Positions 2,235 through 58,053 of a stretch of 64,000 bases of DNA are shown here, piece after piece. The DNA is taken from assembly GCA_017387565.1 (NCBI GenBank), contig JAFOEY010000011.1, positions 1 through 64,000 on the forward strand, in the 5' to 3' direction. The position numbers and the translations under genes were made by a program. The stretch is from Lachnospiraceae bacterium. GTDB taxonomy: Bacteria; Bacillota; Clostridia; Lachnospirales; Lachnospiraceae. The number at the start of each line of letters is the position of its first letter. The first letter of the stretch is position 1. The notes beneath the pieces are model-generated. The model worked only from the letters and a program-made list of their open reading frames with translations, made no database searches and was not told where the DNA came from.

Positions 2235-2280
2235 ACAAATCCAAAGTAGCACTATCCAATTTGTAGATTGATTCATTAAT

Positions 2281-2467
2281 ATGATACCAGGGTCAAAAGG
2301 TCATACTTTTCATGCTCGCATGAAAAAGTATGACTTTGGGACCCGCAAAACATGAGAAAGCAGCCCGATTAGGGCGGATTTCGATTGTTTACGGATTACG
2401 AGAGCACAAAGTGCGTAGCAATCCGTTGGTATCATGGGGGCGAAATACCTTTTGCCCCCAACATCAT
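2281..2467 (+). repeat. Dispersed MITE-like element, copy 1
   Basis: A 187-bp copy of an element found five times in the window. The ends are imperfect inverted repeats: left ATGATACCAGGGTCAAAAGGT, and the right end read inward is ATGATGTTGGGGTCAAAAGGT written in two halves ATGATGTTG + GGGTCAAAAGGT, with 17 of 21 positions matching. Inside are a hairpin with arms GTCATACTTTT..CATG / CATG..AAAAGTATGAC, a small GCCC-GGGC hairpin, and one with arms ACGGATT / AATCCGT capped by GCAC-aaa-GTGC. The copy is flanked by TAAT on both sides, which reads as a target duplication. Its final T (2467) is the last base of the stop codon, read on the minus strand, of the neighbouring gene. Confidence 0.85.
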
Positions 2468-25510: not shown

Positions 25511-25611
25511 ATTTGTATTATTTGTTCCATTTGTTCAGATTTACCATGAAACAATTTTATGTTATACTTTCTCATGAAAATGAAAGACTAATACAATAAA
25601 CAAAAATCAAT

Positions 25612-25797
25612 ATGATACCAGGGTCAAAAGGTCATACTTTTCATGCCGCATGAAAAAGTATGACTTTGGGACCCGCAAAACACGAGAAAGTAGCCCGATT
25701 AGGGCGGATTTCGATTGTTTACGGATTTCGAGAGCACAAAGTGCGTAGCAATCCGTTGGTATCATGGGGGCAAAATACCTTTTGACCCCAACATCAT
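25612..25797 (+). repeat. Dispersed MITE-like element, copy 2
   Basis: A 186-bp copy of the family described at 2281, with the same ends and hairpins. It is flanked by CAAT on both sides. The first hairpin lacks a base in its loop (ATGCCGCATG instead of ATGCTCGCATG). It lies between the divergent yceD and 25.9-kb membrane gene. Confidence 0.85.
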
Positions 25798-25861
25798 CAA
25801 TATACCCAAACCGGTATACTTTAATCGATAAACTATAATCATAAACAGGCGGAACCCTACT

Positions 25862-28733: not shown

Positions 28734-28842
28734 GTTTTCAAAAACAGAAATTGTGTATTATTTCGAATACACAAATTATCCTCAAATTAATCAAACAAAA
28801 AGATTGTCTGTTTTCCCAAAAAATGATACTCTTAGTAATACA

Positions 28843-28936
28843 ATGATACCAGGGTCAAAAGGTCATACTTTTGCACAAAATGCGTAGCAATCCGTTGGTA
28901 TCATGGGGGCAAAATACCTTTTGACCCCAACATCAT
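28843..28936 (+). repeat. Dispersed MITE-like element, copy 3 (internally deleted)
   Basis: A 94-bp version: the left 33 bp and the right ~60 bp of the family joined directly at CATACTTTT / GCACAAA, with ~93 bp of the centre missing. Both termini are intact and it is flanked by ACA on both sides. It lies between the divergent pta and tmcAL genes. Confidence 0.85.
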
Positions 28937-29077
28937 ACAATACATTACATAGATTTTACTTTTAATATAACTTTCATAAAGAAAGAAATTTGCATAGAAA
29001 AGAAAATCATTTACAAAAGTATATAAATTACTTATTTAAAGTTGTTTTCTTTATATTATACATAAAGGAGGACGCAT

Positions 29078-30313: not shown

Positions 30314-30321
30314 TCGAAAGT

Positions 30322-30378
30322 CTAAAAACCGAAGTACGAGGCCGCAAAGATATATATTGGGAACACAAATCTGAAAAG
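30322..30378 (+). repeat. Fragment related to the 46.2-kb inverted-repeat element
   Basis: CTAAAAACCGAAGTACGAGGC and, further on, ATCTGAAAAG closely match segments of the right arm and right flank of the element at 46137-46362. The middle of the arm is missing or replaced. It lies in the spacer after tmcAL. Confidence 0.5.
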
Positions 30379-30386
30379 GGAATAAC

Positions 30387-30434
30387 AAAAAGACAACGGT
30401 TCTATGAATTCCACATAAAACCATTGTCTTTTTT
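30387..30434. terminator. Bidirectional terminator between tmcAL and UPF0210 gene
   Basis: AAAAAGACAACGGTTCTATG / CATAAAACCATTGTCTTTTTT forms a long stem with one G-T/A-C difference and A/T tails on both sides, between converging genes. Confidence 0.9.
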
Positions 30435-46136: not shown

Positions 46137-46362
46137 ATGTCGTCCATATAGAAATAGATATCTTTTCCCGCTGGCTTTTACGAGGTTTTGTTTTTTTCTT
46201 AGCGACATGGCGAACAAAAAGAATGCCCGGTTTCAACTGTTTGAGGACGAAGTCTGAGTTTTGAAGCCGGACATTTAATAATTTTTTGCGAGCATGCCGC
46301 TTAGAAAAACTAAAAACCGAAGTATGAGGCGGAAAAGATGTCTATTTCTATATGGACGACAC
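46137..46362. repeat. Long imperfect inverted repeat upstream of rnfC
   Basis: The outer arms ATGTCGTCCATATAGAAATA (46137-46156) and TATTTCTATATGGACGACAC (46343-46362) pair almost perfectly and continue inward for about 30 bp. Inner pairs ACATGGCGAACAAAAA / TTTTTTGCGAGCATGCCGC and TGCCCGGTTTCAA / TTGAAGCCGGACA extend the fold over the whole 226 bp, with an apical loop around GTTTGAGGACGAAGTC. No ORF. It behaves like a second MITE or a large structured RNA. The interval 45942-46732 holds this element, a smaller hairpin at 46367-46395 and MITE copy 4; I see no gene. Confidence 0.7.
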
Positions 46363-46453
46363 TTATTTCTCAAAGATTGCAAACTTTGCGAGAAATATAT
46401 CTGAAAAGTAAAATTTTTAATAAGACGTGTAAGATAAAATATGGTAAAATAAT

Positions 46454-46640
46454 ATGATACCAGGGTCAAAAGGTCATACTTTTCATGCTCGCATGAAAAA
46501 GTATGACTTTAGGACCCGCAAAACATGAGAAAGTAGCCCGATTAGGGCGGATTTCGATTGTTTACGGATTGCGAGAGCACAAAGTGCGTAGCAATCCGTT
46601 GGTATCATGGGGTCAAAATACCTTTTGACCCCAACATCAT
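46454..46640 (+). repeat. Dispersed MITE-like element, copy 4
   Basis: A 187-bp copy of the family at 2281, flanked by AAT on both sides. The usual GGGGGCAAAATACC near the right end is GGGGTCAAAATACC here. It lies between rnfC and the 46.7-kb gene, which point away from each other. Confidence 0.85.
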
Positions 46641-46732
46641 AATATTGTATTAAAGAAACTATAGATAAAAAAAGATTTCAAATATCAAGAATATCATTTA
46701 TATCAAGAAATATTTATAAAAGGATAGATACC

Positions 46733-56361: not shown

Positions 56362-56410
56362 ATCGTTTTCTCCTTTTATCCTCGCATCAATATTTTACGC
56401 ATAAAATATT

Positions 56411-56597
56411 ATGATACCAGGGTCAAAAGGTCATACTTTTCATGCTCGCATGAAAAAGTATGACTTTGGGACCCGCAAAACATGAGAAAGTAGCCCGATC
56501 AGGGCGGATTTCGAATGTTTTAGGATTGCGAGAGCACAAAGTGCGTAGCAATCCGTTGGTATCATGGGGGCAAAATACCTTTTGACCCCAACATCAT
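56411..56597 (+). repeat. Dispersed MITE-like element, copy 5
   Basis: A 187-bp copy of the family at 2281, flanked by ATT on both sides. It lies 1 bp from the stop codon of the HD-GYP gene (56599), splitting the cluster between HD-GYP and the FecR-domain gene. Confidence 0.85.
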
Positions 56598-56598
56598 A

Positions 56599-58053
56599 TT
56601 ATTTCAAAACACATTTTTTGAGTGCTCTTACAATTTTACCATCCAGCCGGCCATCATCAACCATAGACTGCAAAATATCAAGAGCTTTTTCTTTAGACAT
56701 AGGCTTTTTATAAGGTCGATCGCTGATTAAAGCATCGTAAATATCCGCAACTGTCAGAATACGTGATTCGACTGACAAGTTTTCTGCCGTTAAATGTTTC
56801 GGATAACCGGTTCCGTTTAGCGTTTCATGATGTTGTCCCGCCCAAACAGGGCAATCCTTAAAATAGCGGTTAAAATGGACTTTTTCTAATATTTTCATTG
56901 TCATATTCACATGATCTTCCATCACAGACCGCTCTTTATCTGTTAAAGTACCTTTTCTGATTTTTAAGCACTCCACTTCTTCTTCGGTCAAAAGCGGAAT
57001 TTTTTTATCATCCGGTGTCACACAAAATGCCTCAGCAATTTGTGCGACCTTTTCATAATCTTCGTCCGGCAAATATCCTTTTATATCAATCTCTTTAATA
57101 TAAGATAAAGTATCTTCTAAATATGTCTTCTCTTTTTCATATTCTTCTTTCGAAATCAGGTTTTCCAAAAAACGGATTTTCAAATAACATAGAAACAGTT
57201 CAAACCGGTCTTTTACGATATTTAATCGTTCACCCAGCCTGGTAGCTTTATTCATAACCTCGAGCGGAACAATCAATTTTCCAATATCATGCAAAAAAGC
57301 CCCCATGATTAATTGTTCTTTTCTCTGTGTATCAAAATATTCCGGATACTCTCCTGCTTCATATTCTCTATTCAGTTCATCTATCAAAAGACCGGAATAA
57401 TCCGCAACATTCCTCGTATGCAAAGCATTATAGGGGGTACGCTCATCAATTGCAGTTGCCAGAGCTTCCGTAAAAGACCACATCTGCTCTTTAAGTTCTT
57501 CCGTATACCGCATATTTGAAATTGCAATAGCCGCCTGCGATGCCAAAGATAAAATAACAAATTCATATTCTTTGTTAAATACAATAATCTGACCATTCTC
57601 ATCTAATGCATTAATCAACTGCATGACACCAATTACTTCACCTTCATGATTGGCAAGCGGAATGACCAGTAAGGATTCGGTATGATATCCGGTCATTGCA
57701 TCATAATTCTTGGGACCGGAAAAATCAAAGGTATCATTGCACCAGACATCTTCAATATTTATTACTTTCCTATGAATTGCACTGTATGCACAGACATTTT
57801 CCTCTTTTAGCGGCACCGGTGGCAAGTCAATTTCTTCACCGTTTTCTCCTTGACTAATGTTCATGGACAAAGTTTTCATCACCTTGAATTTCAGTGCGTT
57901 GTCCTCTAAAACATACAGTGTCCCGGCATCACAATTGGTAACATCCATACTCTTTTTCAATATCTTGTCCAACAATTTATTTCGGTTCTTTTCTGTCGCC
58001 AATTCAATTCCTATTGATATTATTTTTCGCAATTCCTGTTGTGTCAAATCCAT
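56599..58053 (-). CDS. GAF-HD-GYP domain phosphodiesterase-like protein
   Basis: A 484-residue protein with an N-terminal GAF domain (about 20-185; NCDAGTLYVLEDNALKF, VIPLANHEGEVIGVMQLIN) and a C-terminal HD-GYP-type domain. Metal-binding residues are kept in HTRNVADYSG, FLHDIGKLIVP, HHETLNGTGYP and DIYDALISDRPYK. HHEN/D-G-x-GYP reads HHETLNGTGYP, with N in place of the usual D. A ~95-residue insertion separates HDIGK from the later motifs. It is likely to hydrolyse a cyclic nucleotide, with c-di-GMP or a cAMP-type substrate both possible. The start at 58053 has AGAGG upstream; the frame is open to 58074. Confidence 0.85.
   Translation of the reverse strand: MDLTQQELRKIISIGIELATEKNRNKLLDKILKKSMDVTNCDAGTLYVLEDNALKFKVMKTLSMNISQGENGEEIDLPPVPLKEENVCAYSAIHRKVINIEDVWCNDTFDFSGPKNYDAMTGYHTESLLVIPLANHEGEVIGVMQLINALDENGQIIVFNKEYEFVILSLASQAAIAISNMRYTEELKEQMWSFTEALATAIDERTPYNALHTRNVADYSGLLIDELNREYEAGEYPEYFDTQRKEQLIMGAFLHDIGKLIVPLEVMNKATRLGERLNIVKDRFELFLCYLKIRFLENLISKEEYEKEKTYLEDTLSYIKEIDIKGYLPDEDYEKVAQIAEAFCVTPDDKKIPLLTEEEVECLKIRKGTLTDKERSVMEDHVNMTMKILEKVHFNRYFKDCPVWAGQHHETLNGTGYPKHLTAENLSVESRILTVADIYDALISDRPYKKPMSKEKALDILQSMVDDGRLDGKIVRALKKCVLK

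Follow-up and report, generated by a model that had tools for sequence, protein, structure and literature searches.

The window analysed here, a stretch of 64,000 nucleotides from the genome of a Lachnospiraceae bacterium (contig JAFOEY010000011.1), carries five copies of a dispersed element, and all five were recovered at the positions at which an initial annotation had reported them. Copy 1 (2283..2465, plus strand) is a complete, RNA-bearing MITE of 183 bp that matches the Rfam family RF01699; copies 4 (46456..46638) and 5 (56413..56595), also on the plus strand, are of the same length, copy 2 (25614..25795, plus strand) measures 182 bp, and copy 3 (28845..28934, plus strand) is a 90-bp derivative in which an internal deletion has removed most of the RNA core and left both ends. 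The element reads GATACC...AACATC, and the long copies 1, 2, 4 and 5 are 95.6-97.3% identical in pairwise comparisons, in agreement with the estimate of more than 90% made by eye. Its ends are, as had been described, imperfect inverted terminal repeats, composed of GAT, then ACCA or GTTG, then GGGTCAAAAGGT. In copy 1 the left terminal repeat (GATACCAGGGTCAAAAGGT; 2283..2301, plus strand), the first bases of which also lie in a closing RNA helix (P1, see below), is matched by a right repeat at 2447..2465 that reads GATGTTGGGGGCAAAAGGT on the minus strand and has GGGGGC where GGGGTC is expected. One reading frame of copy 1 holds two stops.

Each copy is bounded by a target duplication: ATTAATAT for copy 1 (2275..2282 and 2466-2473), ATCAATAT for copy 2 (25606-25613 and 25796-25803), ATACAAT for copy 3 (28838-28844 and 28935-28941), ATAATAT for copy 4 (46449-46455 and 46639-46645) and ATATTAT for copy 5 (56406-56412 and 56596-56602). 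The initial annotation had correctly seen that short identical sequences flank the copies, but their length is 7-8 bp and not the 3-4 bp that it gave, the flanking AT having been omitted. This outer AT belongs to the target duplication rather than to the element, because in three loci (L013, L024 and L037) TT, GT or AA replaces it at one end and the same letters recur past the other end. When copies are lined up with their flanks, the target takes the form AT-N3/4-AT. Complete copies numbered 39 and came from ten genomes (copies 4 and 5 of the window are among them), and 30 of them have an exact 7-8-bp duplication (17/21 in the own genome and 13/18 elsewhere). The underlying search accepted end pairs with a duplication of at least 5 bp or with at most two end mismatches in total, and favours duplicated copies; among the nine complete copies without an exact duplication, L021 is truncated where its contig ends. 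The element is short (183 bp), multicopy and bounded by 19-bp imperfect inverted ends, as is characteristic of a MITE.

Genome-wide, the own genome (G000; 2.9 Mb in 69 contigs) contains 121 RF01699 matches with an E value of 0.001 or better, not all of them complete MITEs; they lie on both strands, several at contig ends. The context was examined for 77 of these matches, the remainder being mostly contig-edge or weak, and 54 copies passed filters on flank and left end, 29 with and 25 without the right end. The uniform orientation reported earlier is true of the five window copies but does not extend to the genome, where the 77 examined matches divide into 47 on the plus and 30 on the minus strand; since both strands are used, the common orientation in the window is not a genome rule. 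An RF01699 match was present in 24 of 61 genomes, and exceeded the family cut-off in 18 of the 61.

The window has syntenic counterparts in G004 and G008, two species of its genus, with an identity that is mostly 90-96% and falls to 83-86% in places. In these the comparison of empty orthologous sites that had been proposed could be made: the window copies are absent from both wherever the site is covered. Copy 4 corresponds to a clean, single and undivided target in both G008 and G004, and copy 3 to a clean empty site in G008; in G004 copy 3 is absent from a diverged site (junctions were read from the letters, the aligner having misplaced some gap letters). Copies 1 and 2 are likewise missing from both relatives, at sites that have diverged and show no clean footprint, the copy 2 site in G008 carrying a local duplication, and copy 5 is absent from a diverged site in G004, the G008 sequence not covering this position. 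The reverse case was also found, in that G004 carries a copy with a 7-bp duplication (L144) at a place that is empty in the own genome (L255). Additionally, a MITE of the own genome (L025) is common to G004 (L271), and therefore not all insertions are recent.

The element contains a known RNA motif, which the initial annotation had not recognised. Copies 1, 2, 4 and 5 match RF01699 (Clostridiales-1) with 117.2, 106.4, 122.1 and 131.7 bits (cut-off 48), and copy 3, from which most of the RNA core is deleted, is unmatched by this model. The helices of RF01699 are those of the window copies. In copy 1 the RNA part (2282..2434, plus strand) comprises the closing helix P1, a long hairpin P2, P3 with tandem G.A, and P4; the match stops at P1 (2434) and excludes the last 31 bp on the right, which contain the second terminal repeat. 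Strong hairpins, noted at the outset from the letters, are evident in the RNA fold of copy 1, at -87.1 kcal/mol compared with a shuffled mean of -44.7 (z -10.4; 0/200 shuffles as good). In a structure alignment of 35 RNA parts from 15 genomes, RNAalifold predicted 26 pairs, 21 of which change on both sides. Paired cells amount to 97.2% (77.2% in shuffles) and double-change cells to 181 (53 in shuffles), and the covariation of 0.563 (0.183 shuffled), a value that none of 500 shuffles reached, collapses when partners are slid by 1-3 columns. Collectively, these compensatory changes identify the sequence as a genuine structured RNA, the fold of which is kept by selection.

P1, which is absent from the RNAalifold structure, joins the first bases of the match to an inner site. 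It is perfect over 7 nt with its own partner in 29 of 35 sequences and in 18% of pairings across copies, figures to be read with the caveat that the match ends were set by a model that itself prefers ends that pair. The pairs GATACC/GGTATC, GATGCC/GGCATC and GATATC/GATATC were seen, so that in MITE copies the letters that vary in the left end change together with the inner site. In other copies P1 is unlike the terminal repeat (GGAAAGC, TAAGTCC, AAAGCCC), which suggests that the RNA may be older than its capture by the MITE. The tandem G.A of P3 is present in 31-32 of 35 sequences at each of its four positions. G-U cells outnumber A-C cells by 19 to 7 (p 0.03; the cells are not independent of one another), and in 34 of 35 copies the better fold is that of the sense strand. 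These strand tests are biased by the use of a sense-strand model to find the copies, and with that caveat they point to an RNA of one strand.

Several short derivatives and related repeat families accompany the element. The smallest, L191 (2058-2093, in G034), is 36 bp long, has little beyond the two terminal repeats and an exact 7-bp duplication, and is perhaps the smallest mobile form. G008 contains several sequences that match across the copy 3 deletion (window 28837-28945), and G004 at least one, as if this short form, devoid of the RNA core, were spreading as a separate subfamily. Ends reading GATGTAAG define a subfamily that is represented by L019 (C44:4009), L227 (C16:95549), L277 in G008, where the right end and a 7-bp duplication are present, and L056 (6701). 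In G018, 16 of 17 end matches read GATTAAAGTGTCAAAAG and belong to another family of elements whose ends are related; L180, a copy of 54 bp, has a 7-bp duplication, and flanks in this family often finish in ATAG or ACAG, not AT. A second dispersed, hairpin-rich repeat family lies at 46139-46395 of the window, adjoining copy 4, and at 30316-30390, and pieces related to it are present at many loci in the own genome, G004 and G008.

The right end is missing from many RF01699 copies of relatives and from some of the own genome. Among these copies, TATAAT stands 0-7 nt before the RNA in L035, L036, L119, L120, L123 and L128, and in C54:36357, C18:95353, C2:25757 and C7:30291 of the own genome. By eye, a terminator-like sequence directly precedes the RNA in L003 and L308. 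In L309 (1204-1653) RF01699 follows directly behind a T-box leader (an Rfam match), the leader elements being stacked before the gene, and a T-box motif before RF01699 in L003 was recognised by eye only. In the own genome, 10 of 54 copies have an exact TATAAT within the 14 nt that immediately precede the RNA, compared with 0/54 in each of two upstream 14-nt windows, and the ten are split evenly between copies with (5/29) and without (5/25) the right end. Among copies of relatives, the box precedes the RNA in 8/25 without the right end (0 further up) and in 5/31 with it (4/31 further up). In the 39 complete copies it occurs six times before the RNA and three times on the mirrored flank, and therefore the AT-rich target explains part of the signal. 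The TATAAT box does have a preferred position, but copies with the right end have it too.

When the own genome and relatives are pooled, the first gene called downstream lies in sense after 35/50 copies without (p 0.007) and 37/56 copies with the right end (p 0.022), a modest bias obtained with a crude gene caller and, in relatives, a loose right-end test (4 mismatches). The relatives contributed 56 loci, 54 with a called gene and no limit on distance, and the own genome genes within 300 nt. In G057, a one-contig genome from another family, 19 RF01699 matches were grouped manually into 12 sites, several of them tandem partial arrays, and 11 of the 12 precede a sense gene or a tRNA cluster, L315 being the exception (binomial p 0.006; at L302 an 84-codon opposite frame inside the repeat was disregarded by hand). 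Tandem partial copies, some without hairpins, often follow RF01699 copies (L119-L124, L308), and one array (G057:1032209-1032955) contains five RF01699 matches.

The genes that follow include dnaE (DNA polymerase III alpha; TIGR00594, 676 bits) after L035 and serS (TIGR00414, 374.5 bits) after L142. Several RF01699 copies, mainly without the right end, lie at the same places in sister species. The dnaE copy is present in both G000 and G001, where 32 of 99 non-pair columns differ; of its 26 pairs, 22 are the same, three are doubly compensated, one is kept as a wobble and none is broken. Other shared copies are degraded in one of the species, with P2 lost in L248, P4 lost in L281 and the 3' half lost in L249 and L284, which counts against a strict RNA function. 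It had been put forward at the outset that one conserved RNA at syntenic places would speak against a transposable element: some RF01699 copies are indeed shared in this way, but the evidence for transposition stands.

The strongest alternative to a functional RNA is a plain DNA MITE. On this view the transposase, or else template-switch correction, would maintain the hairpins as palindromes of the DNA, and the RNA would be a roleless by-product. The left end lies within the long P2 hairpin and the right end folds on itself, as would suit such an element, and the 36-bp L191 and the 56- and 69-bp L056 and L057 retain both ends with an exact 7-bp duplication, and therefore the core is unnecessary for movement. 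However, covariation extends to P3 and P4, distant from the ends, along with the conserved tandem G.A, and template switching fits perfect palindromes but accounts less well for a conserved non-canonical internal loop. The RNA is, moreover, retained in copies without the right end, and the dnaE copies of the two species have compensated, unbroken pairs. We regard the plain DNA element as unlikely, though it deserves more weight than any of the other alternatives.

Less probable still is a gene for a small RNA that acts in trans and is mobile by coincidence, for which we see a slim chance. Rfam does type RF01699 as Gene; sRNA, boxes resembling a -10 element immediately precede several copies, and the genes downstream are diverse. 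Such a gene would hardly be expected in many diverse copies in each genome, most of those displayed lying in sense just before a ribosome site and start codon (L132 and L138 do not), and a terminator-like T run directly after the RNA was not seen by eye in the displayed copies.

An autonomous element with matching ends, which the initial annotation had suggested looking for, was sought, and candidate partners were found, all in relatives and none in the own genome. Among 18 DDE_Tnp_1 loci surveyed in 12 genomes, a facing pair of the element's GAT ends is present only at L154, in G001 of the same genus, where GATTTAAGGGTCAAAAG and GATTTGAGGGTCAAAAC enclose a transposase of 533 aa, the right flank being cut by the contig end. 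L154 also has an inner inverted repeat around CCTTGAAAA. Homologues of the transposase occur in 23 of 348 family genomes surveyed, and a subterminal repeat of the CCTTGAAAA type in 25 of 33 loci checked. A GAT end, with up to 3 of 13 letters off, lies within 90 nt upstream of the inner repeat in 22 of these 25 loci (the exceptions being L165, L200 and L220), compared with 256/9900 random windows from the same loci; L154 and L185 had been preselected for their GAT ends, which makes the unprejudiced count 20/23, and several loci overlap or are near-identical. Outside the GAT ends, exact duplications are found in L197 (ATCAATAT), L198 (ATGACAT) and L199 (ATATAAT); the other three of the six partner copies that have both ends, L196, L201 and L215, show no exact one. 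L196, L201 and L216 have the end GATGTTGGGGTCAAAAG, which is also the usual right end of the MITE. Two contig ends of G022 resemble the flanks of one partner insertion, with the duplication ATGTTAT and the same inner repeat. Two loci, L200 (G354) and L165 (G004), belong to a transposase branch with different ends (GAGTTGCCCGACAAATG), and a 10-bp direct repeat (CTGTTTCTGT) stands on both sides of L200.

For four partner proteins the best NCBIfam family is IS1182 (NF033551), at 136, 120.8, 126.5 and 125.1 bits, scores that fail the curated cut-off of 270 bits; the partner transposases are IS1182-related and are not members of the family by this cut-off. The L154 protein, the one tested against Pfam, matches DDE_Tnp_1_6 (50.9 bits, cut-off 25.1) and DUF772 (42.6 bits, cut-off 23.1), domains that we take to tie it to the IS1182 family. 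An IS256-type partner, suggested by end sequences of that type, had also been considered; this candidate was rejected, as G000 has no match to PF00872 (Transposase_mut) and 30 loci of relatives gave scattered matches only, with up to 2 mismatches. In the own genome, no close homologue of the partner transposase was found (best E 1.2e-5, 26% identity), and therefore the mobiliser there is missing, lost or unassembled. Twenty regions of this genome, drawn from about 100 of its 195 GAT-end matches, gave no transposase-sized pair with a matching duplication and yielded fragments or very short derivatives. GAT-end matches occur in 17 of 29 genomes with few or no MITEs, and, the two contig ends of G022 apart, no complete transposase-sized end pair was present in 20 regions from MITE-poor or MITE-free genomes. 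The MITE reading of the initial annotation is borne out: the ends are inverted, most complete copies have exact target duplications, sister species show empty sites, and relatives have a candidate partner.

A partner relationship would be illusory if the IS1182-like element had CTTGAAAA ends and a 4-bp GTAC target of its own and were merely inserted inside GAT-ended MITEs. GTAC does stand on both sides of the inner repeat in L154 and L202. Yet other letters adjoin the inner repeat in L196, L197 and L199, the same outer ends lie upstream of it in 22 of 25 loci from many genera, and three loci have 7-8-bp duplications outside the outer ends, all of which makes this nested arrangement very improbable. 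A single-strand element (of the IS200/IS605 or REP type) without target duplication, which a hairpin at either end and the uniform orientation in the window might recall, is refuted, to a residual doubt that is close to nil, by the inverted ends, the exact 7-8-bp duplications and the use of both strands genome-wide.

When the Clostridiales-1 RNA was published (Weinberg et al., 2010; PMC2864571), no function was assigned to it. The main text of that paper does not use the words 'mobile', 'high copy' or 'hundreds', and where 'repetitive' and 'transpos' each appear once, other motifs are meant. Judged by title or the start of the abstract, no literature linking Clostridiales-1 or RF01699 to mobility was found, nor was one on this element among the listed publications on Lachnospiraceae MITEs, IS1182 MITEs or RNA-motif MITEs. 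The nearest known precedent appears to be the bcr repeats of the Bacillus cereus group, among which, as described in PMC3446304, bcr1-bcr3 are MITE-like and located in UTRs or between the genes of operons, bcr10 and bcr18 are structured RNA elements in 5' UTRs, and a correlation with mRNA decay is given, among bcr1-bcr3, for bcr3 only. By these descriptions, the comparison being one of description and not of sequence, the MITE-like and the predicted-RNA families are separate among the bcr repeats, whereas the Clostridiales-1 MITE is both at once and has a candidate partner. In Methanosarcina acetivorans, MITEs of 160 and 169 bp were assigned to an IS1182-family partner, ISMac2 (PMC3852290); they resemble the Clostridiales-1 MITE in having a partner of this family assigned, and differ, as far as that account goes, in their archaeal host, in duplications of apparently 4 and 0 bp and in carrying no claim of an RNA.

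We consider it probable that the window copies represent an RNA-bearing MITE that is moved in trans by IS1182-like transposases, and the RNA of which acts in cis as an mRNA leader. To judge from the identical ends, an IS1182-related transposase would recognise the ends GATNNNNGGGTCAAAAGG in trans and insert the unit into AT-rich AT-N3/4-AT sites, 7-8 bp of which would be copied. One strand of the unit would then be read into a putative transcript that folds into a closed, four-helix RNA under selection, and insertions in sense before genes would become part of the 5' mRNA leader; some copies without the right end do stay put across several species. In cis, the RNA would most likely shield or stabilise the mRNA start, and such protection could make insertion upstream of genes tolerated or even useful.

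A bolder form of the RNA-bearing MITE reading can be offered as a tentative proposal, which we hold to be less than an even bet. IS1182-type ends may have captured a functional RNA, and the resulting MITE may seed 5' leaders just downstream of host promoters or terminators. Sense copies could subsequently be domesticated, with loss of the right end and selection at the RNA level, such that a selfish element would spread a functional mRNA leader across a bacterial order.

Such an element would carry a caution, namely that RNA discovery by covariation may pick up transposons. The Clostridiales-1 family itself would gain a mechanism of mobility, by which its high copy number and patchy spread would be explained. 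If the leader reading is true, transposition supplies bacteria with structured 5' leaders, which would then be kept by selection.
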